A stretch of 54,449 bases of DNA, taken from the IMG/VR virus record IMGVR_UViG_3300046454_001280, positions 1-54,449 of that record. The stretch is one strand, 5' to 3'. Below are positions 1 through 54,449 of the stretch, piece after piece. Numbering within the stretch: position 1 is the first letter of the stretch; each line of letters begins with the position of its first letter. This DNA is from a virus. A model generated the notes under the pieces. That model was not told where the DNA came from and ran no database searches. It saw nothing but the letters and a program-made list of their open reading frames with translations. Both the position numbers and the translations under genes were made by a program.

Positions 1-687
1 GTCGGGCGCATGTATCAGCGCGAACTGGCCGAAGCCCTCGGGCAGATCCGCAGCGCGACCTTGCAGGCCATGGCGTTTGGTTCGGGCATTCACAGCCTGC
101 GCCTGGCGACGCTGCCAACGTTTGGCTCGAAATGGCTACTGCCACGGCTCAAGGATTTCTACACCGCACACCCGGGAATGACCGTGCACTTGCATTCGCG
201 GATCGAAGCGATCGACTTCGACACCAGCGAGATCGACGCGGCGATCTGTGTGGGTGGTGGTGAATGGCCGGGGCTGAGCGCCCTGCCGCTGCACACCGAA
301 GAACTGGTGGTGATCGCCAGTGCGCAGTTGTCGGCAGCCGAACGTCTGGACGCTGAACAGCAGATTGCCGGACAACTGCTGCTCAATGTCAGCAGCAATG
401 CCCAGGCCTGGGCTGAATGGTTCACTCATCACGGCCTGCCGCACCGCAGCATGCGCATCGGGCCGAGCTTTGAAATGACCTCGCACTTGATTCAGGCGGT
501 TCGGGCCAATATCGGCGTGGGGCTGGTACCGCGGATTCTGGTTGAGGATGAATTGCTAAACGGCGAGCTGCTGCAACTGGGGAAACCGATCACCAGTCGG
601 CGCAGCTATTACCTGGTGTATCCGCCGCGTAATGAGGCGTTGCCGTCGCTGAAGGCGTTTCGGGATTGGTTGGTGGACACGCTGTGA
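1..687 (+). CDS. LysR-family transcriptional regulator, 5' truncated by window edge
   Basis: Reading frame is open from base 1, so the N-terminal winged HTH lies outside the window. The 228 visible residues are the effector-binding domain of a LysR-type regulator and are closest in feel to GcvA-like members: a stretch like LRLATLPTFGSKWLLPRL opens the domain, followed by a segment typical of IDFDTSEIDAAICVGGG and WPGL. Family members bind DNA as tetramers and control a nearby, often divergent, gene, which is not visible here. The usual length is about 300 residues, so roughly 70 are missing. Host gene; the exact target is unknown. Confidence 0.85.
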   Translation, partial: VGRMYQRELAEALGQIRSATLQAMAFGSGIHSLRLATLPTFGSKWLLPRLKDFYTAHPGMTVHLHSRIEAIDFDTSEIDAAICVGGGEWPGLSALPLHTEELVVIASAQLSAAERLDAEQQIAGQLLLNVSSNAQAWAEWFTHHGLPHRSMRIGPSFEMTSHLIQAVRANIGVGLVPRILVEDELLNGELLQLGKPITSRRSYYLVYPPRNEALPSLKAFRDWLVDTL

Positions 688-3226: not shown

Positions 3227-3462
3227 GGGCGCACGCCTCGCAGGCGATGAGTCGGTCGACCCGTTGAGCATAGATGAGCCTGCGCCGACCTGCTGTCCCG
3301 GCAACTGCCAACCCGATCACACTTCTGACGCAGTCTCAGTGCGCGTCATGGTCCCTGAACCAAACTGAGCGCGAAATCCCCAGTAGATACTGGGCTTTGG
3401 AAATGAATGAAGAATCCGATGTGCTATTCAGTGTACTTTTCAGCACGTGCTGACCTTTGCGA
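3227..3462. other. Host-prophage junction region, presumed to contain attL
   Basis: The 236 bases between the last host gene (DUF1652) and the first phage gene (DUF1353). No gene, tRNA or tRNA 3' end is evident. The attachment core cannot be identified because the matching attR lies beyond the right edge of the window. Direct comparison with sequence just right of 54449 would reveal it. Confidence 0.5.
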
Positions 3463-3951
3463 TCAGCTTAAGTGATAGGCGCTCTTGTACAGCGCCACCT
3501 CATCGCCCCCCATCAGCTCCCAGGCGAAGTCTTCATTCTTCGGTCCGCCCTTGCAGGCCGCATAACGTGATGCGCCACCGATCCGAACACCTGCATAAAT
3601 CAGATGGCTCTGGATCAGAGGCGCGCCGGTTACCTGCAGCATTTCGTAGAGCATGCTGTCGCACCACGCCTTGGGCTGTTGATTGAAGCAGTAGCTGGCA
3701 TCGTGGACGATCCCCGGCAGGCGGCTGTCAGTGCTGTTGAACATCGGCTCAGCAAGCCACGGGATCGAAGCAAGGTCAGTGATAAAATACTTCGGTACAT
3801 GCTGGTAGCTTCCGTCCTTGCGCAGGTAGCCGAAGTCTTCCATGACAACCCACTCTCCGACCTTGTACGGGCGCAGCAATGGGATCAGGGAGAACTGCCC
3901 CGGCCCGTTGCCGATATAGGGATAGGCCAAGGCGCCACCTACATCGCTCAT
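3463..3951 (-). CDS. DUF1353 family phage protein (162 aa)
   Basis: The start at ATG 3951 overlaps the stop of the upstream lipoprotein gene as ATGA; the longer upstream extension is out-of-frame sequence of that gene. The motif FITDLASIPW, followed by an HDASYCF helix, is the DUF1353 signature, a small alpha protein found next to lysis genes in tailed phages. It is the most distal gene of the late operon and lies next to the left prophage end. Its role is not established; proximity to the endolysin suggests late expression. Confidence 0.75.
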   Translation of the reverse strand: MSDVGGALAYPYIGNGPGQFSLIPLLRPYKVGEWVVMEDFGYLRKDGSYQHVPKYFITDLASIPWLAEPMFNSTDSRLPGIVHDASYCFNQQPKAWCDSMLYEMLQVTGAPLIQSHLIYAGVRIGGASRYAACKGGPKNEDFAWELMGGDEVALYKSAYHLS

Positions 3952-4160
3952 TTCCCGCTGTCCGCTGCGCAAGTGATCGCCACCGAGTTCGGCAGCAGCA
4001 GGCTGTTGATGACAGCGCGGTTCAATGCGCGATCTGGAACAGGCAGTGCGCAGTAACCAGTCACGATCTGCGGCAGAGGTGTACTGCCCTGCGGAATGGC
4101 GGAGCAAGCGGACAAAATACAGGCAGCAAAAAGCGACCCAGCGAAGAGAGCTGATTTCAT
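3948..4160 (-). CDS. Small phage lipoprotein, possible o-spanin (Rz1-like)
   Basis: Starting at ATG 4160 gives a 70-residue protein with signal peptide and lipobox (LSAC, Cys18), so it is predicted to be anchored in the outer membrane. It lies between the endolysin and the DUF1353 gene, where outer-membrane spanins are often found, and it contains prolines after the lipobox. No inner-membrane spanin partner is visible next to it, so the spanin role is an inference from position. It overlaps the downstream gene by 4 bases. Confidence 0.6.
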   Translation of the reverse strand: MKSALFAGSLFAACILSACSAIPQGSTPLPQIVTGYCALPVPDRALNRAVINSLLLPNSVAITCAADSGK

Positions 4161-4209
4161 GATGATGTACCTGATGGATTTGGGGTGAACAGAGGTTGAT
4201 GCAGCGGGC

Positions 4210-4689
4210 TTATGCGGCAGCCACTCCGATGGCGATCGCTTGGGTTCCGGTCTTCCCGGCGAACAGCGCGGCATCAGCGGCACGACGCCGGGTCAGACCT
4301 CGCATCGGAACACCTGCTGCCCGATTCCAGCGTGCGAACTGTGCAAAGGCGCCGTCCATATCGCCGGCGTTGATCAGTCGGAGCAGCGTGGAATGTTGAA
4401 AATTGCCAATGCCCAGGTTGTAGGCAAAGTCAACCAAAGCGTCGAACTGTCCTTGACTGATACTGGTGGTCACCGCGCAGGAAACTGCCATCTCTCGCGA
4501 TGCGAGGTCATTCAGTAACTGAGCGTCTGCCTTGGCCTGAGTCCAAACGAGGCCGCGCACGACTTCCGGCCCGGTATGTCCCCAGCCAATCGTCCATGGT
4601 GCACCACCGGTGGCTGGATCTGGGTAAGCCGATAGCGAGCAGCTTTCGAAGTGCTTCAGTACAGAGATGCCATTTTGTGAAATGCGCAT
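4210..4689 (-). CDS. Phage endolysin, GH24 lysozyme
   Basis: A 159-residue muramidase of the T4/P22-lysozyme type that cuts the glycan strands of peptidoglycan at lysis. The catalytic triad is visible as E15, D24 and T33 in the segment from KHFESC to WTIGWGHT; the family pattern is Glu, 8 residues, Asp, then Thr. There is no signal peptide or SAR segment, so export needs a holin. The C-terminal half contains GQFDALVDFAYNLG, also typical. The gene immediately follows a 26-codon remnant of a different endolysin (4693-4773). Confidence 0.92.
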   Translation of the reverse strand: MRISQNGISVLKHFESCSLSAYPDPATGGAPWTIGWGHTGPEVVRGLVWTQAKADAQLLNDLASREMAVSCAVTTSISQGQFDALVDFAYNLGIGNFQHSTLLRLINAGDMDGAFAQFARWNRAAGVPMRGLTRRRAADAALFAGKTGTQAIAIGVAAA

Positions 4690-4692
4690 TTG

Positions 4693-4773
4693 TCAAACTC
4701 CGGGCATGAAAACGCCGGCTTGTTTGCCGGCGTTCGGAAGGATCTGCAGCAATTGCTGCGCGGTGATTGGCAT
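4693..4773 (-). pseudogene. N-terminal remnant of a GH19-type endolysin (26 aa)
   Basis: With GGAG ribosome site and ATG at 4773, this short frame reads MPITAQQLLQILPNAGKQAG and ends at TGA 4695-4693, three bases before the GH24 lysozyme start. The opening is the one commonly seen in Pseudomonas phage GH19 (chitinase-like) endolysins, which run to about 180 residues. I infer that the rest of that gene was replaced by the GH24 lysozyme, leaving the original start and ribosome site as a leader. Its translation would end right at the lysozyme start and could couple to it. Confidence 0.6.
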
Positions 4774-4844
4774 GCTTTTCTCCGGATTGGTTGTTGCGCC
4801 ATCTCTGGTCACGTATTCTTTCAGTTTTTTTGAGGGAACAAATA

Positions 4845-5951
4845 ATGCGCGCCAAGCAAATAGACTCTCTTACATCACTAAGATTTATTGCGGCCGCATT
4901 GATTGTTATTTTTCATTCGAAACATAACTTTGGCGGTTTCTCTTTCGCTGATCATTTTTCTTTGACGCAAGCTGTATCCATGTTCTATGTGCTTTCAGGG
5001 TTCATCCTGACTCATACCCACAGAGAAATCTCATCGAAAAATGATCTTGCAAGATTCTATCTGAGTCGAGCAGCCAGAATATGGCCGATTCATCTTTTGA
5101 CAGCAGCAGCGGCCATATACATCATAAGCAGCTATGGCGGGGCGTTACCACCTATTGATATTGCATTAAATTTCGCGCTTGCTCAGTCATGGATTCCAAG
5201 CCCAGAAACTTACTTCTCCTTGAATGGGGTTTCATGGAGCCTATCAAATGAGATATTTTTCTATGCTGCTTTCCCAATCTTGATCATCAACATAGAAAAA
5301 ACATGGGTGATCAAATTACTGGCAACAGTGGCAATTACGGCACTGATGCTATTCGCATTCAAAGATAGCGAGCGCCAGTTAATGCTATGGTCTGCGTATA
5401 TATCGCCACTCACGAGGCTCAGCGAATTCATGCTTGGCATAGCCGCGTACCAGATTTATCTGAAGCTGCAGAGCCACCAGAGAACCGTGAAACCCACTCA
5501 GAGCATTATCGAAGTTATCGCGGTTATATTCGTAGTCTGCGCCATGTGGATAGGAGACCTAAATTTCTTCTCAACACTGCCAATCGCCATCAATAAGCCC
5601 GTGGCAATTTGGTTCGCTAACTGCGGGGGCGCACTGGCCTTTGCAGTCCTTATCGTCGTCCTTGCTCGCCAGAATGGGATCATTTCAAAATCGATGCAAG
5701 CACGGCCACTGGTGTATCTGGGCGAGATAAGTTTTTCCATTTACATGGTTCACCAGATCGTCATCCGCGTGTTTGAGATGTACCCCGCCATAACAGCAGG
5801 GATGAGTCAGGCCGCCACGCTAAGCATTTACTACTCGGCAGTAATCGCGGCCGCAGCAGCGACACACGGCCTTATAGAAAAACCGGCACAGAAGATGATA
5901 CTGCGAATTGCATACGGAAAACCCAGGCAGGGCTTAGTGCGAGATCGATAA
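4845..5951 (+). CDS. Acyltransferase-3 family membrane protein (probable O-antigen acetylase)
   Basis: A 368-residue integral membrane protein with about ten hydrophobic segments. It has the family's R-x10-H motif at R13 and H24, near the end of the first cytoplasmic stretch. Such enzymes move acetyl or other acyl groups onto surface sugars; phage copies alter O-antigen of the lysogen and block receptor binding. The start at ATG 4845 is supported by GAGGG upstream; the in-frame start at 4767 overlaps the endolysin remnant. It is on the opposite strand to all neighbours and clearly more AT-rich, so it is a transferred cargo gene between the lysis and tail-fibre genes. Confidence 0.88.
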   Translation: MRAKQIDSLTSLRFIAAALIVIFHSKHNFGGFSFADHFSLTQAVSMFYVLSGFILTHTHREISSKNDLARFYLSRAARIWPIHLLTAAAAIYIISSYGGALPPIDIALNFALAQSWIPSPETYFSLNGVSWSLSNEIFFYAAFPILIINIEKTWVIKLLATVAITALMLFAFKDSERQLMLWSAYISPLTRLSEFMLGIAAYQIYLKLQSHQRTVKPTQSIIEVIAVIFVVCAMWIGDLNFFSTLPIAINKPVAIWFANCGGALAFAVLIVVLARQNGIISKSMQARPLVYLGEISFSIYMVHQIVIRVFEMYPAITAGMSQAATLSIYYSAVIAAAAATHGLIEKPAQKMILRIAYGKPRQGLVRDR

Positions 5952-5956
5952 CTTAA

Positions 5957-6142
5957 TTATCCGCCTGTTGGGGCTGGTAGATTTCCAGTTATCGTTCCTG
6001 GCAATAAATTATCCCACCAAACCTTGTATCGCGGGTAATCGGCAAAAACCTCTTCCTGAAAAGGAACATATTCCTCAGGCTGGGGAGAGCCAAAAATCGC
6101 CACAATAACCGTCTTATTCGCATCTGAAAATTCAGCGATCAT
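5957..6142 (-). CDS. Small phage protein after tail fibre (61 aa)
   Basis: Begins at ATG 6142 with GAGGTGATCC before it; the ribosome site overlaps the stop of the tail-fibre gene 8 bases upstream. It is an acidic protein rich in aromatic residues (YKVWWDNLLPG). Position after the fibre is where fibre-assembly chaperones are often found, but no chaperone domain is recognised. Function unknown. Confidence 0.65.
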   Translation of the reverse strand: MIAEFSDANKTVIVAIFGSPQPEEYVPFQEEVFADYPRYKVWWDNLLPGTITGNLPAPTGG

Positions 6143-6150
6143 GGATCACC

Positions 6151-7614
6151 TCAGAACTCATATGATTTTACAGAAATTGTAAAACTTGGGGTGCCGGCAC
6201 TGTTGGCGGTAGTTCGGTAAAGAGTCTGTGGCAATGCTATTGCGACTCTGAATGGGATAGCCTGAGATGAGCCGGCAGTTACGTTTGCAGTGTTGAACTG
6301 ACCGCCAACATTGCCTCCCGCTGTTGGGTAGATTGCTTGAGAAATTGCACTAACAGCGGTACTGCCAATCTGGTTAAAACCACTTACGAATGTCGCGCTA
6401 TATGGGATTTGCGAGGACGATATAGCGCCAGCTGTAACGATGGCAGACGACCCCGTGATTACGCTCACGCCAAGATAATCAATATACCGGTCAAACTGAA
6501 TAAAGGCTGCGAATTGCCCAGCGGTACTGCTGATAGGTGCGACAGATATGAGTGCTGAAGCCGTAAACCCTGCCGGCATATTTGCGCCGATGTATACGTT
6601 GGCCAATGGGCCGCCAGACTCCATCGTAGCCAGCAACGCAGACACTTGGGTCGTAGGGTTGTAAATGGCATAGATGCCAACGAAGCCGTTCGCAGTCGCA
6701 GTGCCGGTATCCATGCCACCGGCGCCAGTTGTAGCCAAGTTGATGGTTTTGTTGAATGCCGGAAGACAATAACGCAGGCCGCCGAGGTTAGACTGCACCA
6801 CGATCTCATTGGCAGTAATGTTGGCAGTCGCCGAAGTCGCGGGCACTGAACATCTCAGGTTTCGTACCGAGCCAACAATGCCGGAAACTTGGTCGAACCG
6901 AAGTGCATGCGCGGCGGAAGTCGCGGCCAGCACTGATAGGGGCACCGAGAACACTGGGGTCAAGCCGTGGAGCGTGCTGTTGATCAGCGGAGCATTCGGT
7001 GCAGTGGTGATGTTCCCGGACGTGATGGTGGTCTGTCCGAAAGCTACGGTAACCACGTACAGGCCGATGTAACCGGCATCAGGAGACGGAGTGACTTGAG
7101 TGCCGGTGGCTGCGGAAGCGCCCGCCTTCACTGCTACGACAGCAATCCCTTTGCGCGCGGTATTTTGGGTCTGGCCGTTATTGCCCATGCCGCTGTATGG
7201 CATAGACGGGTTGGCGCTGTTGTAATAAGGCAGCAGTACGGGCGTCGAGTCAGAATCCTGGTACGTGACCTGAACGAGGTAGTTGATCGACTGCCCAGTC
7301 GTGCCTGGGGCCGCACAGCTCAGCGTGACGCCATCCAGCATGATCCCCTGTTTGAGAATCGAGTGGGTGGTATCGGCCGGCAGAGTCGAAAATGCCAAAG
7401 CGTCGATGGCGGTAAGGCTATAGATCTCGCCCGGAGCGCACAGAACCTGTAGGGATGCCGGGCCTGTTGGCGTTACCGCAAAACCGGTCGCCATGGTACT
7501 GGTTCCGAGCAGCGCAGAAGCAAGCTTGGCCGCTCCGATCATGGAGTCCTTCGTCATCTGAAGAAGGCTGGTTTCCGGCAGGATCTGGCCCGGGTAAACA
7601 ATCTGTCTGTCCAT
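6151..7614 (-). CDS. Phage tail fibre / side tail protein (487 aa)
   Basis: Starts at ATG 7614 with MDRQIVYPGQILPETSLLQ, an opening seen in tail fibres of Pseudomonas contractile-tailed phages. The N-terminal part likely attaches to the baseplate, next to the gpI-like protein encoded just upstream. The rest is rich in Ser, Thr, Gly and Ala with many short beta segments, as expected for a trimeric fibre. It is presumably the host-receptor binder. It is preceded by an intrinsic terminator at 7624-7650, so expression may be reduced relative to the baseplate genes. Confidence 0.82.
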   Translation of the reverse strand: MDRQIVYPGQILPETSLLQMTKDSMIGAAKLASALLGTSTMATGFAVTPTGPASLQVLCAPGEIYSLTAIDALAFSTLPADTTHSILKQGIMLDGVTLSCAAPGTTGQSINYLVQVTYQDSDSTPVLLPYYNSANPSMPYSGMGNNGQTQNTARKGIAVVAVKAGASAATGTQVTPSPDAGYIGLYVVTVAFGQTTITSGNITTAPNAPLINSTLHGLTPVFSVPLSVLAATSAAHALRFDQVSGIVGSVRNLRCSVPATSATANITANEIVVQSNLGGLRYCLPAFNKTINLATTGAGGMDTGTATANGFVGIYAIYNPTTQVSALLATMESGGPLANVYIGANMPAGFTASALISVAPISSTAGQFAAFIQFDRYIDYLGVSVITGSSAIVTAGAISSSQIPYSATFVSGFNQIGSTAVSAISQAIYPTAGGNVGGQFNTANVTAGSSQAIPFRVAIALPQTLYRTTANSAGTPSFTISVKSYEF

Positions 7615-7623
7615 GGAATCCCC

Positions 7624-7650
7624 AAAAAAAAGCCCGCACAAGGCGGGCAT
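7624..7650 (-). terminator. Intrinsic terminator within late operon
   Basis: On the minus strand the stem GCCCGC / GCGGGC is followed by eight T. It lies between the gpI-like gene and the tail fibre, so partial termination or antitermination must let the fibre be expressed. Confidence 0.8.
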
Positions 7651-7668
7651 AGAGTTGAATGAGTGGTT

Positions 7669-8325
7669 TCAGTTGGTGATCCGGTACCAGATCGTTGACC
7701 CGTACATCTTTGTGGCTTCGATAGCGGCCACAATGTCGGCGTCGGATACTGCGGGGGAAAGCTGCGTGCTTGGGACCAGTCCGCTAGTGACTGAAAGACC
7801 AAACCAATTCGTATGGATACCCGGCCAATTGGCCGCTCCGCTGCCTGTAGGTCTGTAGGCGGTCACGAATGCCTGATAAGGACAGCTCGTGGAGCCGAGC
7901 GGCCCTGCGATACCAAGGCCAAGCGTCAGCCCAAGGCACCCGCAATCGTCAGGCTTTGCTGGTTCGATGATCAGCGGATAGCGCCCAGTGAGGTCGAACA
8001 GCACTTGACTCATGCCGCGCCGAGTAGCGCGCTCGCGGAAGATGTTGATCAAGATGCGGTTTCGATAGCTCGGATCGAGCTGGGTCGAGAACCGAATCAG
8101 GTTGTTGCCGAAGAAGTCCAGCCCAATCAGGTCAAGCCAGCCATCAGTGGCTGTTTTGATTCGCGTCTGGTCCTTGGCATAGAGGTAAAGAGTGAACCCC
8201 CATGAGAGCGCTTGGGCATATCCCCAGAGAAGCGCGTCCCTGATCGGGTTGTTATCGCCGAACCAGCCAAGCGGCAAGAGGTTCTTGAGCCGGCCGAACA
8301 TGTCTGTCTGATCGCCAACGCTCAT
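7669..8325 (-). CDS. Baseplate protein, tail protein I (DUF2313-like)
   Basis: A 218-residue protein directly after gpJ, the usual place of the P2 gpI / Mu gp48-like baseplate component that links wedge to fibre. The N-terminal region (FGRLKNLLPLGWFGDNNPIRDALLWGYAQALSW) and the middle segment around RNRILINIFRERATR are similar in style to that family. Its start touches the stop of the J gene with no gap, indicating tight coupling. Family assignment relies partly on gene order. Confidence 0.75.
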   Translation of the reverse strand: MSVGDQTDMFGRLKNLLPLGWFGDNNPIRDALLWGYAQALSWGFTLYLYAKDQTRIKTATDGWLDLIGLDFFGNNLIRFSTQLDPSYRNRILINIFRERATRRGMSQVLFDLTGRYPLIIEPAKPDDCGCLGLTLGLGIAGPLGSTSCPYQAFVTAYRPTGSGAANWPGIHTNWFGLSVTSGLVPSTQLSPAVSDADIVAAIEATKMYGSTIWYRITN

Positions 8326-9453
8326 TTAAGCCACCGTCACTGTGCCTGGTCTGATGACCTGTTTATTGGTCGCCGCGAGATCGGCGGTACTGCCATTGAG
8401 CAGTACGCCGGAGACATTGGTGATTGATGGGCTGACTGAGTAAGCTACCGCTGCAAGCTGTGTGTAAGGCAGGATCTGACCCAGAGTCAGCTTGGCGATA
8501 TACGCCTGAATCGCTGCGGTGACCTGAGCCACAACGACGCTGTGGGTGACCGTAGCATCGGTGGTGATGGTCATCCCGACGTTAGCGGTCACCAGAACTG
8601 GGCCGAAAACACCGTATCGGGTTGTGAAGCCGCGAGCCGATTCAATGGCGGCGGCAGCATTCACCAAAAACGATCCTGAAGGCGCCCCACTGCCGTCATC
8701 AACGACCGCATAGAAGTAGCCATACAGAGTGTTGCCGCTGTAGTCCTGATTCTCTGTCAGCGTGTAAGAAACGCCCTGCTGCATCGAGGAAAGCGCATAT
8801 TGAATGGCTGCCTTCGTTGCCTTCGACAAGGACTGAACCCAGAGCACGAACCTTGCCCGGAATGCTTCGTCCGTCTCTGGATCAACACCATTGGTGAATA
8901 CCGCAGAGTTCGTCACGGTATCAATGCCGCTGATGGATCCGACGATGACAGTGACGGTGCCTATCAAAGCGTTCCCAGCAGCACCTGCGGTGCTGGCAAT
9001 CACCGGCACGGTGGCCGATGCGGTGCCACCCGGCACCAAATAGCCACCAAGCGTAGCGTTATAGAGCACGTTCGTAGTGTCGATGGTCACTGAATACTGC
9101 TGCGAGCCATCGGTCGAACCAACCAGCGCGCCGATCTGGATCAATGCAGAGTTGGTCGGCGTGAACCTTGAAAAGGTTACGCTGCCAGTGGCAAAGCTTG
9201 CAGACAGGCGATAAAACCCGAAATCGGCCATCCAAGAATCGAGATCGGCGCCGGATGACGTCGATGCGCGCGTGGTGGCCAGCAGCGTCACAATCAACTG
9301 CTGGAGCCATTGGAGGATACTGGCATTGCTTTCTGTGATTGCCCGCAGCAGAGAGCCTATGGTGAAGTCCACCAGCCCAGCGGCACGCCCCTGAATGGCT
9401 GTCACCTGATCACGCACCAGAGTGGTGAAGTCCTTGACGTTGAGAGATGCCAT
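8326..9453 (-). CDS. Baseplate J-like protein
   Basis: 375 residues matching the gpJ/Mu gp47 family, which forms the wedge ring of contractile-tail baseplates. Typical features are the N-terminal helical part (FTIGSLLRAITESNASILQWL), the DLDSWMADFGFYR segment and a beta-rich core with repeated VPVIAST-like and GSISGIDTVTN segments. It is followed without a gap by the I-like gene and preceded by the gpW/gp25-like gene, the canonical order. Confidence 0.9.
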   Translation of the reverse strand: MASLNVKDFTTLVRDQVTAIQGRAAGLVDFTIGSLLRAITESNASILQWLQQLIVTLLATTRASTSSGADLDSWMADFGFYRLSASFATGSVTFSRFTPTNSALIQIGALVGSTDGSQQYSVTIDTTNVLYNATLGGYLVPGGTASATVPVIASTAGAAGNALIGTVTVIVGSISGIDTVTNSAVFTNGVDPETDEAFRARFVLWVQSLSKATKAAIQYALSSMQQGVSYTLTENQDYSGNTLYGYFYAVVDDGSGAPSGSFLVNAAAAIESARGFTTRYGVFGPVLVTANVGMTITTDATVTHSVVVAQVTAAIQAYIAKLTLGQILPYTQLAAVAYSVSPSITNVSGVLLNGSTADLAATNKQVIRPGTVTVA

Positions 9454-9454
9454 A

Positions 9455-9820
9455 TCAGCGATTTACCTCGAACGAAAGCGTCACCGGCTCTCCGAGCGGG
9501 GAGTCGGTGTAGCTGATATTGACGGAAATGGTGTCGTTTGATGGTGTGACAGAAATCACTGGCGCGGGCTTCTTAGCCACGCAATCCTCAAGCAATATCT
9601 GCCCTCTGATATTCGCGATGATTTCCGGAATATTCATCAGGGCGCCGACGTAGCGGCCAAGCCCTGCCCCATATTCAGGATGAAACAGGTAATCGCCTGG
9701 GTTGGTGATCAATCTGCGCAGAATCCTTTGCTTGCCTCTCTCCATGCCCTCGACCGGCGACAAGCTTCCGGTCGGGGACAGTGAAAGATCGTCTCCCGGA
9801 TAATGGTTGAGGTCTTTCAT
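9455..9820 (-). CDS. Baseplate wedge protein, gpW/gp25-like
   Basis: 121 residues with the gp25/gpW lysozyme-like fold pattern: RILRRLITNPGDYLFHPEYGAGLGRYVG, then IIANIRGQILLEDCV. The family is a structural wedge component that starts sheath polymerisation and is not an active lysozyme. The ATG overlaps the end of the V gene by four bases, so translation is coupled. Confidence 0.9.
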   Translation of the reverse strand: MKDLNHYPGDDLSLSPTGSLSPVEGMERGKQRILRRLITNPGDYLFHPEYGAGLGRYVGALMNIPEIIANIRGQILLEDCVAKKPAPVISVTPSNDTISVNISYTDSPLGEPVTLSFEVNR

Positions 9821-10401
9821 ACGACTGGCACCGAAGAAGTCCCGCCACCTGGGGTGACGCCGCTGGTGCGGTGGGTTTTGAGGCTGATGGTGTCTGCCTT
9901 GACGTCACCGCTAGTGACCACAACGCCTGTGCTGTCCGTAACAGTCAGCGTGTGATCCATCGTCACCGGTCCGCCCGTAAAGTGATGTGCAGGAGCGTCG
10001 TAGTTGATCGCCGTGATCGAGTGCACCGTAACCGTCCCGTCAGTCAGGAACTTGAGGAGGGAGCCGGTCTTATGAACCAGCCAGATTTCTCCAGGCGGCA
10101 CTGGCATTGCAAGGTTCAAGCTGTTCGTATGGCGCGCAGTGACTCGGCCGCTGTTTGGATCGAATGAATCGAATTCGACCGTGACTTCATCGCCGATTTG
10201 CGGGCCGATTTGCACGCCCCATCCATTCCCCACGCCCGGGCAATCCAGCTTTAGCCAGTTTGTTTCTCGGCCTTCAGGCTGGATGGCAACCTTTACCACC
10301 CCATTTGTTTTGTCATAACTGGTGATGGTCCCAGACCGCGATCCGGTTGCGTCCGTCGTCTGGGTTTGATGCAACGCATTCGTCAGTTGTTGTAGGCTCA
10401 C
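9817..10401 (-). CDS. Baseplate spike / assembly protein V (Mu gp45-like)
   Basis: 194 residues with an OB-fold-like N-terminal half (GTITSYDKTNGVVKVAIQPEG) followed by a beta-helical tail ending HRTSGVTPGGGTSSVPV, the pattern of P2 gpV tail spikes. The trimeric spike pierces the outer membrane. It uses a GTG start at 10401, overlapping the TGA of the D gene as GTGA. A histidine near the tip may bind metal, as in related spikes. Confidence 0.87.
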   Translation of the reverse strand: MSLQQLTNALHQTQTTDATGSRSGTITSYDKTNGVVKVAIQPEGRETNWLKLDCPGVGNGWGVQIGPQIGDEVTVEFDSFDPNSGRVTARHTNSLNLAMPVPPGEIWLVHKTGSLLKFLTDGTVTVHSITAINYDAPAHHFTGGPVTMDHTLTVTDSTGVVVTSGDVKADTISLKTHRTSGVTPGGGTSSVPVV

Positions 10402-38370: not shown

Positions 38371-38390
38371 CTTTTTTCTAGGGCTTGCAA

Positions 38391-39119
38391 ATGAATTTTT
38401 TCGGACGAGATGTTTCAGAGCCTGCCGGTCGGCATGAGCGGGTGGCATTGGCGATCGAGCACAGCAAGCTCTCTAAAAGCGAGATGGCGAAGCGCTGCGG
38501 CGTGTCCCCATCCGCCGTTACTCAGTGGACGACTGGCGAAACCGCATCTATAAAACCAGAGAACCTTTTCGCACTGGCTTCAGAGTCAGGAGTTAGCGCA
38601 AGGTGGATCGCGACTGGTGAGGGAGTCCCGGAACCATTCACTCCGGGGCAAAATGTTATTGCGTGGGAAGCGCCTGAGGATCTTCCAAATGACCAGTTCA
38701 TTATCGTGCCTCGCATTGAGGTGAGATTTGCAGCAGGGACGGGAGAAATGGTGATAGAGGAAGTGCACCAGGATCAGGGAAACGCATATCGGATGGATTG
38801 GATTAGGCGAAAGCGGCTGAACCCCAAGAATCTTTCAGACTTCATAATCACTGGCGAATCGATGGAGCCAACACTCCCGGAGGGATCCAAGGTCACACTT
38901 GACTTAAGCAACACCGCAATTCAGGACGGTAAGGTTTATGGGATCCGGTACGGCAACGAATTGCGTATCAAGCGGCTATATAAGAGATTCGACGGAGGCC
39001 TTATCATTCGCTCCGACAATTCCTCGAAGAATCCAGATGAAAGTCTGAACCCTGACCAGCTTGAGCATGTATCCGTCATCGGGAGATACGTAGCCCACAG
39101 TTTCGACGGAGACATCTAA
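38391..39119 (+). CDS. cI: CI-like repressor, S24 peptidase type (242 aa)
   Basis: N-terminal HTH_3 domain (LSKSEMAKRCGVSPSAVTQW, residues 27-46), linker, then a LexA-like S24 peptidase: cleavage site A115-G116 in FAAGTG, Ser157 in GESMEP and Lys194 in LRIKRL. RecA-stimulated self-cleavage would induce the prophage after DNA damage. The start at ATG 38391 is preferred to the upstream TTG. It sits between two three-site operator regions and ends before a strong terminator. Confidence 0.93.
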   Translation: MNFFGRDVSEPAGRHERVALAIEHSKLSKSEMAKRCGVSPSAVTQWTTGETASIKPENLFALASESGVSARWIATGEGVPEPFTPGQNVIAWEAPEDLPNDQFIIVPRIEVRFAAGTGEMVIEEVHQDQGNAYRMDWIRRKRLNPKNLSDFIITGESMEPTLPEGSKVTLDLSNTAIQDGKVYGIRYGNELRIKRLYKRFDGGLIIRSDNSSKNPDESLNPDQLEHVSVIGRYVAHSFDGDI

Positions 39120-45948: not shown

Positions 45949-47751
45949 ATGACCGCATTCAAAAAGCACGCAGACAGACTTCAGCCATTGAGCATGGGCC
46001 TGCCTTTCCAGAAGGAGCTGGTGGTTGATCTGTTCGCCGGCGGGGGCGGAGCTAGTACCGGCATCGCCCGGGCTTACCGAGAACCGGATGTGGCCGTAAA
46101 CCATAATCAGATCGCCCTGGCTGTGCACCGAGCCAATCATCCGGAGACAGCCCATTACGTGGCCGACGTGTTCGAGGTTGATCCAGTGCTGGCAACTGGC
46201 GGCCAGCCTGTCGGGATTCTCTGGGCCTCGCCGGATTGCCGCCACCACAGCAAGGCAAAGGGTGGCGCGCCGCGCGATCGCAAAGTTCGCGGGCTGGCGT
46301 GGGTGGTTGTTCGATGGGCCTACGCGACTCGCCCTCGCCTCCTCTTTTTGGAAAATGTTGAGGAATTCTGCGATTGGGGCCCTATTGATGAAGAAGGGCA
46401 GCCAATCAAGGCTGAGAAGGGGCGAACCTTCCGGTCATTCATCGCGGCGCTCAGCACTGGGCTTCCTGCCGATCATCCAGACATGCAGGAGATTATCGAA
46501 TCCATCGGTGATTTCGTGCCGGTTGCGGACCTGGTGCGAGGTCTTGGTTACAACGTGGAGTGGCGCGAACGGATTGCCGCAAACGCCGACGCCCCGACAA
46601 TCCGCAAGCGCCTTTACCTGGTCGCACGCAGCGACGGACAGCCGATCGTTTGGCCGGAAGCGGTTCGGCACAAGAAGCCTATCGGAAAGCAGCTTCCATG
46701 GCGCAGCGCGGCGGAATGCATCGACTGGAGCAATCTCGGCCGCACGATATTTCGTGAAAAAGAGATGGCGAAGAACACAATGCGCCGAGTGGCCAAGGGC
46801 TGCTGGCGACATGTGCTTACCAGCACGAAGCCGTTCATTGTCCCAATGCGCGGCACCTCGGAATCACACACCAGTACCCACGGCGTGGATGAAGTACTCT
46901 CTACCATCAGCGCCGGCGGCACGCACCACGCGTTAGTGCAGCCGGTAGCGGCACCGTTTCTCACCGAGTGCGCCAACGGCTCATCTCAACGCAACTTCGA
47001 CGCGCAAGAACCACTGCGCACGCAGGTCGCCCAGGTCAAAGGCGGCCACTTCGCGATGGTTGCCGCACACATGACGGCCTTCGGGCAGAACGCCGTTGGC
47101 AGCTCGCCGGACGAGCCAACACAGACCGTACTGGCCGGTGCCGCGCGACACGGTGTCGTCGCTGCGTTCTTCGAACAGGCGAATGGCGGGTATTACAAAG
47201 GAGACGGCCGTTCGGCCTACGACCCGATCTCGACTATCTGCCAATCAGGCGCCAACCAGCGATTGGTCAACGCCTACCTGGTGAAGTACTACGGCAACGA
47301 GAAGGACGGCATTTCGCTCACCGATCCGATGCATACCCTGCCGACGAAGGATCGGGTCGCGCTGGTCGAAGTGGTGCAGGTGCCTGACACGCTGACGCCG
47401 GAGCAGATGAAAGGCGCCCGCCGTTGCGCAGCCTTCATGCACGAATACCTGCCGGAGCACTTCAAAGACCCCGCCGAAATGGTGATGGTTGGCGGCTACG
47501 TGCTGGTGGACATCACTCTGCGGATGCTGCAACCGCCAGAGCTGAAGAAGGCGCAAGGCTTTCCGGACAGCTACATCATCGACCGCGGCCTGTTCGTTGA
47601 CCCGGAAACCTGCGCCGAGGAATGGCGCGGCATCAACAAGACGGACCAGGTGCGGCTTATCGGGAACAGCGTCTGTCCTGACGAGGCTGCCGCTCTAGTC
47701 GCTGCCAACGCCGCCGAGCTGATCGAGCTGTACCGAAAGCTCGCCGCGTAA
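45949..47751 (+). CDS. C5 cytosine DNA methyltransferase, orphan (600 aa)
   Basis: Motif I DLFAGGGG (27-34); motif IV WASPDCRHHSKAKGG with Cys97 as likely nucleophile (the common form is P-C, here P-D-C); motif VI LENVEE (134-139); motif VIII-like TIRKRLYLVAR (217-227); motif X RLIGNSVCPDEAAA (569-582). Residues ~230-480 form the variable target-recognition region. No neighbouring restriction enzyme of matching type is obvious. It probably protects phage DNA from host restriction. A sequence upstream (45892-45948) is a short leader. Confidence 0.9.
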   Translation: MTAFKKHADRLQPLSMGLPFQKELVVDLFAGGGGASTGIARAYREPDVAVNHNQIALAVHRANHPETAHYVADVFEVDPVLATGGQPVGILWASPDCRHHSKAKGGAPRDRKVRGLAWVVVRWAYATRPRLLFLENVEEFCDWGPIDEEGQPIKAEKGRTFRSFIAALSTGLPADHPDMQEIIESIGDFVPVADLVRGLGYNVEWRERIAANADAPTIRKRLYLVARSDGQPIVWPEAVRHKKPIGKQLPWRSAAECIDWSNLGRTIFREKEMAKNTMRRVAKGCWRHVLTSTKPFIVPMRGTSESHTSTHGVDEVLSTISAGGTHHALVQPVAAPFLTECANGSSQRNFDAQEPLRTQVAQVKGGHFAMVAAHMTAFGQNAVGSSPDEPTQTVLAGAARHGVVAAFFEQANGGYYKGDGRSAYDPISTICQSGANQRLVNAYLVKYYGNEKDGISLTDPMHTLPTKDRVALVEVVQVPDTLTPEQMKGARRCAAFMHEYLPEHFKDPAEMVMVGGYVLVDITLRMLQPPELKKAQGFPDSYIIDRGLFVDPETCAEEWRGINKTDQVRLIGNSVCPDEAAALVAANAAELIELYRKLAA

Positions 47752-53013: not shown

Positions 53014-53247
53014 ATGAACACAGCAACCGAAGAAATCGAATTCATCCGGCTGCCAAGAGTGATCGCGCTTGTCGGCCTGAGCCAAACGACGATTTACGAC
53101 ATGGCAAACGCTGGACGATTCCCAAAACAGGTCAAAGTTGGCGGCCGGGCGGTGGCCTGGATCAAGTCCGAGGTTCTGCAATGGAGCCAAGAAAGGGTTG
53201 CGGCCGCGCGCGGTGATCAGCCCTCTGCCTCCAGCGAATCAAGATAG
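53014..53247 (+). CDS. AlpA-family excisionase/regulator (77 aa)
   Basis: FIRLPRVIALVGLSQTTIYD-MANAGRFPKQVKVGG is the AlpA winged-HTH pattern. Such proteins act as recombination directionality factors or activators for a P4-type integrase. Its 3' end overlaps the 3' end of the convergent integrase gene by 31 bases, so expression of one may interfere with the other. Best candidate excisionase. Confidence 0.85.
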   Translation: MNTATEEIEFIRLPRVIALVGLSQTTIYDMANAGRFPKQVKVGGRAVAWIKSEVLQWSQERVAAARGDQPSASSESR

Positions 53248-54449
53248 TCCGCCCACGCCTGCATCATCTCCCGTCGCTGCTCTACATACTCGGCATGGTT
53301 GTAGGTCTTCCTGACCTTGCTAGAGCTTGCATGTGAAAGCTGCGCCTCGATCCAATCCTCGTTGTACCCCATCTCATTTAGAGCTGTAGAAATCGTCGCA
53401 CGAATCCCGTGCCCGGTTAGCTGGTCTCTATATCCCATACGCCTCATAGCGGCATTTAACGAGTTATCACTGATTGGCCGGGTAGGCTCGCTCCGCCCGG
53501 CGATCAGCAACTTGTAGCGCCCGGTCAAGGCATGCACTTTTCTCACCTCCTCAACCGCCTGCCGCGAAAGTGGCACCAAATACGGCGGAACCGAATCACC
53601 TCCCTTGCTACGAATCACCTTCCTCAGTTGCTTCACCGAATCCGGCGGGATTGTCCATAGTCCTGCATCAAGGTCGAACTGCTCAAATTTCGCGTGCCGC
53701 AATTCACCTGTGCGAACTCCTGTAAGCAGCAGAATACGAATGGCGCCGATGATGTAGCCTGTTGCGCGCTTAAATTCCCGCAAATTGCGTAAAAAATCTT
53801 TCAGTTCGTGCCGGCGCAACATTGGGTTGTGCTTCACTGGCGGCGGCTTGGCCGCAACGATGTCTAAGTCCGATGCAGGGTTCATCTCCAGATAGCCCGA
53901 TGCAATGGCGAACCGGAAAATCTCATTGAGCCATGACCTGCATTTTTCGGCAGCACTCAAGGCTCCGCGACCTTCAATCCGGCGCAGAGTAGCAAGCACA
54001 TCCTGCCGCTTTATTTCAACCACAGGGATTTTACCAAGGACTGGGATTAGGTCGTTTTCGAGATAGGCTCTTGACTGATTAGCCGCACCTCTCTTTGAAT
54101 CAACCCAGCGCGGAGTTTTAAAGGCGTGCCATTCGTTGGCGACGACTTCAAAGGTCTTGATCGCCTCGGATGCCGAAATGCGCTTTTCCTCGCGCCGCTT
54201 CGATCGAGGATCTATGCCTTTAGACACAAGCGAACGAGACTGATCGCGCAGATCTCGAGCTTCTTTCAGGGATATTTCTGGATAGGTGCCCAGCGACATG
54301 CGCGGCTGCTTGCCGTGCCAGGAAAACCTGAAGTGCCAGGATTTTGTGCCATTCGGGGCGACAAATAATGACAAGCCGCCGGCATCGGTGATGGAGTAAC
54401 CTTTGTCAGCTGGCTTAGCCAGCCGGACAGCGGTATCAGTGAGGGGCAT
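53217..54449 (-). CDS. int: P4-type tyrosine integrase (410 aa)
   Basis: N-terminal Arm-binding DUF4102-like domain (residues ~1-90, incl. LSLFVAPNGTKSWHFRFS), core-binding domain (~95-200) and catalytic domain with R246 (LLLTGVRTGEL), H347-x-x-R350 (HGIRAT), H373 (LSHAS) and Y383 (KTYNH). The start codon is the last three bases of the window, so the gene is complete but its promoter and attR lie outside. It is convergent with the AlpA gene. P4-type integrases often use tRNA genes as targets. Confidence 0.93.
   Translation of the reverse strand: MPLTDTAVRLAKPADKGYSITDAGGLSLFVAPNGTKSWHFRFSWHGKQPRMSLGTYPEISLKEARDLRDQSRSLVSKGIDPRSKRREEKRISASEAIKTFEVVANEWHAFKTPRWVDSKRGAANQSRAYLENDLIPVLGKIPVVEIKRQDVLATLRRIEGRGALSAAEKCRSWLNEIFRFAIASGYLEMNPASDLDIVAAKPPPVKHNPMLRRHELKDFLRNLREFKRATGYIIGAIRILLLTGVRTGELRHAKFEQFDLDAGLWTIPPDSVKQLRKVIRSKGGDSVPPYLVPLSRQAVEEVRKVHALTGRYKLLIAGRSEPTRPISDNSLNAAMRRMGYRDQLTGHGIRATISTALNEMGYNEDWIEAQLSHASSSKVRKTYNHAEYVEQRREMMQAWADYLDSLEAEG

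Follow-up and report, generated by a model that had tools for sequence, protein, structure and literature searches.

What does an AT-rich gene do for a phage when it lies between the lysis and tail-fibre genes and is read against them? The gene considered here belongs to a 54,449-base virus record, the whole of which is referred to below as the window, and the coordinates, composition and neighbours ascribed to it in the first-pass annotation agree with our own analysis: its GC content is 46.6% versus 57.6% for the whole window, and the lysozyme gene, a small 61-aa gene and the entire tail fibre gene (6151–7650) are all encoded on the strand opposite to it (Table 1). The open reading frame starts with ATG at 4845 and encodes 368 aa, with the stop codon ending at 5951; the frame remains open upstream as far as a TTG at 4767, but a GAGGG is located 8 nt ahead of the ATG. 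The predicted product, termed allele W, passed the curated threshold for Pfam family PF01757 (Acyl_transf_3, hereafter AT3; E = 2.7e-32, 112.6 bits, cut-off 31) and matched phrog_3333 (O-acetyltransferase) with E = 1.5e-51. An NCBIfam search with W returned zero matches, and a sequence-profile search against PDB gave nothing at 0.01. No SGNH domain was found by Pfam in the 368 aa, and W is therefore of the single-domain type, like Oac of phage Sf6. A sigma-70 scan upstream of the gene gave no convincing site (one match, within the gene, against 3.0 in shuffled sequences), and a scan for promoters and terminators around it found none exceeding chance; its orientation opposite to the neighbouring genes suggests independent transcription. 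Judged from its sequence, W is an intact-looking gene for a predicted integral-membrane acyltransferase of the lysogenic-conversion kind. W was matched in 20 of 50,697 phage records, with identity below 60% in every one, and by two weak matches (31% and 29%) in the genome contigs; a peptide-pattern search of the viral contigs, from which records very near the window may be omitted, found none.

Table 1. Features of the window at the AT3 locus, together with genes indicative of phage lifestyle
Feature	Coordinates	Strand	Observation
Phage lysozyme (PF00959)	4210..4689	-	protein 98-100% identical in six nearest relatives
26-codon remnant ORF (MPITAQQLLQILPNAGKQAGVFMPGV, then stop)	4693..4773	-	first 22 codons like GH19 endolysin N-terminus
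Strong hairpin, 9-bp stem, then TTTTC, inside remnant; possible terminator	4711..4734	-	sequence scan
Endolysin-type ribosome-binding site and start, GGAGAAAAGCATG	4771..4783	-	DNA matches other haplotypes again within 3 bp of it
AT3 (PF01757) membrane O-acyltransferase gene, allele W (predicted)	4845..5951	+	R13-X10-H24, R75-A-A-R78
61-aa small gene (phrog_20339, function unknown), fibre/AT3 interval	5957..6142	-	66-74% DNA, varies with cassette
Tail-fibre tip, residues 236-499	6151..6945	-	65-67% DNA versus L004, L009, L006, L008
Tail-fibre N-terminal part (residues 1-230: 95-100% DNA)	6946..7650	-	conserved
HTH/S24-type repressor	38385..39119	+	gene scan
Tyrosine integrase	53217..54449	-	temperate phage

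The R-x10-H motif proposed at first sight is indeed present: all 20 AT3 proteins aligned, W and 19 others that are 12–31% identical to it, have R13 and H24 without exception. Residues R75 and R78, forming an RXXR motif, were invariant in 15 of 15 AT3 proteins in a set that excludes the B-type proteins described below; allele B is without RXXR at the corresponding place and reads K-N-I-R. Both motifs, R/K-X10-H in TM1 and RXXR, are given as essential, with predicted acyl-CoA binding, in PMC9558356. An AlphaFold (AF2) model of W was all-helical (pLDDT 77.7, pTM 0.81). Among the 50 structure matches listed for it, chains titled HGSNAT (Z 14.5–16.4, 277–299 residues aligned, rmsd 4.3–5.2), two entries titled ‘membrane proteins’ (Z 16.2–16.3) and GWT1 (Z 10.2–11.7) were followed by matches with Z of 4.5 or less. 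Direct Foldseek comparison of the model to PDB was weak (best E 0.27), and one match, A0A345N001 (E = 1.4e-7), was obtained among predicted viral structures. As modelled, the predicted fold matches that of a multi-helix membrane acyl-CoA transferase resembling acetyl-CoA:sugar acetyltransferases. Human HGSNAT, which is an acetyl-CoA:glucosaminide acetyltransferase, shares this transmembrane acetyl-CoA:sugar acetyltransferase fold; it is however a human enzyme with 13–14% identity to W in the structural alignment, and the comparison concerns how W may work, with no membership implied.

The tyrosine integrase and the S24-type repressor point to a temperate lifestyle and support the label ‘lysogenic’. 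The window also encodes a terminase, and a match to tail sheath was weak and below the cut-off. Two further plus-strand genes, at 2617–2979 close to the left end and at 45949–47751 in the direction of the right end, encode a NUDIX hydrolase and a C5-cytosine methylase-like protein, respectively.

With the gene lying just upstream of the fibre gene (7669–8325) as query, 47 loci were obtained from the viral contigs. The six nearest relatives have almost the same lysozyme as the window, yet carry another AT3 between the small gene and lysozyme: a protein of 372 aa in L004, L005, L007 and L009 (allele A) and one of 377 aa in L006 and L008 (allele B), the Pfam check of these alleles being made on L004 and L006. 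Comparison of W, A and B by blastp produced partial alignments at most (~ 23–27% identity); W with B gave no alignment. DNA was compared gene by gene in four of the six close relatives (L004, L009, L006 and L008). Outside the cassette, the window and L004 were 98% identical in baseplate J, 100% in gene 7669, 100% in fibre residues 1–230 and 99% in lysozyme, versus 65% in the fibre tip, 66% in the small gene and 47% in AT3, the last with so many gaps as to be unalignable; corresponding values against L006 and L008 were 95–96% for the fibre base and 67% for the tip. The cassettes of L006 and L008 are 99% identical to each other, though gene 11505 differs between them by 11%.

Of 50 related virus records scanned with PF01757, 18 had AT3, with 21 genes in total (17 of 49 records and 20 genes if the short record L035, retained though its AT3 was already known, is left out). 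These 50 came from 66 records first listed, of which 16 short ones, with no AT3 by a local profile, were set aside; some of the 32 records without AT3 are fragments. All 21 AT3 genes start 259–5316 bp downstream of the fibre stop codon, the 7-kb stretch that follows the fibre representing 11.6% of sequence in the 18 AT3 records, and in the 13 records longer than 45 kb, 15 of 15 AT3 genes were near-downstream of the fibre. Since several of the AT3 records are close kin, naive clustering probabilities would be too small. Distinct AT3 lineages of the slot share about 36% identity or less; the arrangement of the window, with AT3 and fibre on different strands, recurs in several of them, and several others lie on the strand of the fibre. 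All 12 further AT3 genes compared in composition were lower in GC than their respective loci, and dN/dS values of 0.10–0.36 in five pairs (four of alleles A and B, plus L043/L046) indicate purifying selection.

The number and kind of genes following the fibre varied. Three AT3 genes follow one fibre gene in L046 (G725), one of them being part of a 665-aa ORF with a long extension, and two do so in L043 (G722). Downstream of the fibre in AT3-less records we observed a formyltransferase-like gene (L025, 11925–12821, minus strand) and a GT92/GT2-like glycosyltransferase gene (L050, 14265–16196, minus strand), both of which may be alternative glycan modifiers, and GDSL-lipase-like proteins were seen downstream of the fibre in L017 and L156.

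Relatives of the same alleles were present on another backbone. A relative of allele A (83%) in L113 and L114 and a relative of allele B (62%) in L120 are alternatives between a tail fibre and an Rz spanin, on a backbone that is unrelated to that of the window and that is termed siphovirus-like here because of its lambda-J-like tail protein. Scanning of this siphovirus-like group covered 43 loci, 10 of them with AT3, some located beyond the spanin and some identical with records already counted. Fibre bases 40–65% identical to that of the window were also observed on plasmids of Pantoea, Aquitalea, Rhodovastum and Paraburkholderia, which suggests that some related phages may be phage-plasmids or prophages residing on plasmids. 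On the Rhodovastum plasmid RHOApg (L106), a 372-base gene right after a fibre-like gene (8279–8650) bears the plasmid database label beta-lactamase OCH-5 at 100% identity; its position and length suggest that this label is probably wrong.

The limits of the exchanged segment were sharp on the lysis side, where, in each of six comparisons, identity of the window to other haplotypes returns no more than 3 bp away from GGAGAAAAG.ATG. The window retains at this place the start of a GH19 gene as a remnant, followed by the lysozyme now standing in its place, and L043, L044 and L046 have a complete GH19 endolysin gene with the same kind of start. No direct repeats of at least 24 nt flanking the window cassette were found in 3400–8400. 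Imperfect direct repeats of 125–127 nt (81% and 86% identity), containing the start of another endolysin, flank AT3 in the siphovirus-like loci L203 (10427–10551 and 11843–11967) and L207 (10493–10619 and 11935–12061); L205 has one repeat copy at the same site and no AT3. The junction is an endolysin start in both backbones, which suggests recombination at conserved starts. On the other side, the conserved fibre base is the probable left anchor of recombination, to judge from the alignments. Fibre tip, small gene and AT3 thus appear to make up a block replaced by recombination between the fibre base and the endolysin start, with boundaries drawn from sequence comparison and an exchange event that we infer.

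A second variable tail gene was observed at 9817–10397 (minus strand), with 66–82% DNA identity between phages that are 91–98% identical in the genes on either side; by analogy with the annotation of L104, it occupies the place of baseplate assembly protein V.

Bacterial genomes provided information on the host. The LysR substrate domain at the left end of the window (10–687), probably of host origin, is 67% identical to a gene of genome G247, and 2 of 299 sampled genomes matched it at E 1e-60. Prophages related to the window were present in 5 of 398 genomes of the genus of G247; AT3 was found within the examined 14 kb in two of these five (L152 and L155), and none in the other three. The best chromosomal relatives of W (34–38% identical) occupied eight places in five genomes, out of 298 of the likely host genus. 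One (L165) has genes for a J-like tail protein and for a tail fibre ahead of it, another (L200) is located among glycosyltransferase and epimerase genes, and that of L199 is also near glycosyltransferase genes. In L166 (genome G406), an AT3 gene at 6420–7544 on the minus strand (42% GC, 37% identical to W) comes after fibre, assembly and endolysin genes and is followed by a gene which we take to be cinA. This combination of genes, with the presumed cinA nearby, marks L166 as a tailocin-like cluster and makes its AT3 a candidate tailocin immunity gene. A search for the endolysin gave a match in 126 of 199 genomes, and the best 30 loci were inspected over 1.5 kb per side: a gene that is presumably cinA lies beside the endolysin in 28 of these 30, and AT3 was present in one (L168, in the same place as in L166), leaving AT3 unsupported as a general tailocin immunity gene. 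The size of the genus (more than 398 species), together with endolysins beside the presumed cinA, suggests Pseudomonas as the host genus, and the host of the window phage and its relatives is probably Pseudomonas. According to PMC8319346, mutS-cinA is a tailocin site and no tailocin immunity gene is known.

From the closeness of the two genes, the first-pass annotation had proposed paired evolution of fibre and modifying enzyme, a claim that stands as far as linkage is concerned and fails as a rule of matching. Tip and AT3 haplotypes co-occur in 7 of 7 close phages (the window and six relatives), which comprise three haplotypes only. Among the AT3-bearing loci compared, tips at least 98% alike were accompanied by AT3 proteins at least 94% alike in 8 of 8 pairs, drawn from three lineages. 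B-type AT3 genes (63% and 47%) are also located beside a homologous fibre tip of the same class in L121 and L122, with the small gene (66%) in L121. However, the tips of L121 and L122 are equally near to those of A (63–64% and 52–53%) and B (64–65% and 51–52%), which indicates a shared tip class and no B-specific match. The tips of A and B are themselves 86% identical with enzymes that can hardly be aligned; likewise L113 and L120, of A and B type on the siphovirus-like backbone, have tips 83% alike and AT3 proteins with no match. The fibres of the siphovirus-like loci L202 and L205 are 99.3–99.7% identical to that of L113, with no AT3 in the stretch examined, and in 14 pairs AT3 identity was at least 33% yet tip identity was below 33%, i.e. 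one AT3 lineage occurred with differing fibres. A strict fibre–enzyme matching rule is refuted by these cases. By the comparisons made, fibre tip and AT3 form a linked pair and move as one in exchange, without an obligate match between them; part of this linkage is accounted for by common descent. A more far-reaching idea, which we put forward tentatively and regard as rather doubtful, is that recognition and modification form one exchangeable haplotype whose alleles come from a pool common to the unrelated phages of a single host population and sometimes also to tailocins, the enzyme serving as the immunity partner of the adjoining fibre, in the tailocin cluster as well.

The presence of AT3 beside the receptor-binding gene of a temperate phage is an arrangement already known from Sf6 and D3. 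In the temperate Pseudomonas phage D3, the AT3 gene orf28 is located between a tail protein (orf27) and endolysin (orf31), in the order tail protein, iap, O-antigen acetylase, wzy-beta, HNH and endolysin, and its Oac, according to PMC11436027, adds acetyl groups to the fucosamine of LPS and keeps phages from binding. The D3 protein differs in its length of 687 aa and in its near full-length alignment to the AT3 proteins of L011 and L042, which possess an SGNH domain; W, in contrast, is AT3 only and not of the AT3-SGNH type represented by OafB, OatA and D3, is 25% identical to the D3 protein over 335 aa and lies on the other strand, with no iap or wzy seen adjoining it. Closer in layout is the Oac (gp15) of Shigella phage Sf6, a single-domain AT3 with both R/K-X10-H and RXXR, encoded directly after the tailspike on the opposite strand, for which a separate putative promoter and terminator are annotated. 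It differs in that blastp at E 0.01 does not align it with W and in having the integrase as the next gene, not lysis genes; O-acetylation by this enzyme confers immunity to Sf6 (PMC9558356). The O-acetyltransferase gp49 of Escherichia phage TL-2011b, an AT3 encoded upstream of holin, endolysin and spanin, is 30.5% identical to W over 370 aa, but it is on the same strand as the lysis genes and its function comes from annotation only. Phage acetyltransferases are common as a kind, given that 5–30% of Klebsiella prophages per K-locus encode proteins of predicted acetyltransferase function (PMC13123978). The titles and abstract openings covered in the literature included none describing a fibre-tip/acyltransferase allele slot, which is no proof of absence.

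We estimate a probability of about 0.68 that W O-acylates a surface glycan in lysogeny, alters the receptor and protects the lysogen, as one allele of an exchangeable slot between fibre and lysis genes. The original suggestion of a membrane acyltransferase carried as cargo, probably for lysogenic conversion of surface sugars, is supported by family, motifs, modelled fold, the slot content of relatives and, by analogy, the position of oac in D3 and Sf6. W is an AT3 protein by the sequence tests made and, by position and family, a probable O-antigen acetylase. The enzyme would take an acyl group, most likely acetyl, from cytoplasmic acyl-CoA by means of its R-X10-H and RXXR residues and, in the lysogenic state, would transfer it through the membrane onto a surface-glycan sugar, with O-antigen as the most likely target. 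The lysogen, its phage receptor so changed, would be shielded against phages; relatives that share the tip class are probably among these.

Acylation could instead be directed at another envelope or secreted glycan, such as capsule, exopolysaccharide or core, for the benefit of host lifestyle and with no phage exclusion. Many glycans are AT3 substrates (PMC9558356), the sequence does not reveal the substrate, and two of the chromosomal relatives of W (L199 and L200) are near glycosyltransferase genes; we nevertheless find this unlikely, given that AT3 keeps its place after the fibre gene in phages of two types and is exchanged along with the fibre tip. Peptidoglycan is a still less probable target. 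The adjoining lysozyme gene invites the thought that W O-acetylates peptidoglycan in the manner of OatA and so tunes sensitivity to this or other lysins, leaving surface sugars alone, and AT3 proteins such as OatA do act on peptidoglycan; but OatA needs its SGNH domain (both from PMC9558356), to which W, with 368 aa, has no match. The fibre-downstream genes of relatives, moreover, belong to varied families, including formyltransferase-like and glycosyltransferase genes, and the D3 and Sf6 enzymes in similar position target O-antigen. That the AT3 genes are functionless passengers in transit, in a slot near the prophage end that tolerates insertions, would fit the 32 of 50 records without AT3 and the gain and loss of AT3 without change of fibre, but is very improbable in view of the confinement of 21 of 21 AT3 genes to one region, the purifying selection seen for A and B (dN/dS 0.10–0.36) and a slot common to many highly diverged AT3 lineages.

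Under the preferred reading of W as a surface-glycan acylase of the lysogen, the locus is ordinary in kind and useful in comparative detail. Model phages, Sf6 and D3 among them, already provide examples of O-acetylases that convert the serotype; what the comparison adds is an allelic slot in environmental prophages, probably of Pseudomonas, with many strongly diverged enzymes and clear swap boundaries. Natural pairs having the same fibre with and without AT3 make it directly testable whether the modifier protects against its own fibre class. The link between modifier and fibre bears on phage host range, superinfection exclusion and tailocin self-resistance.
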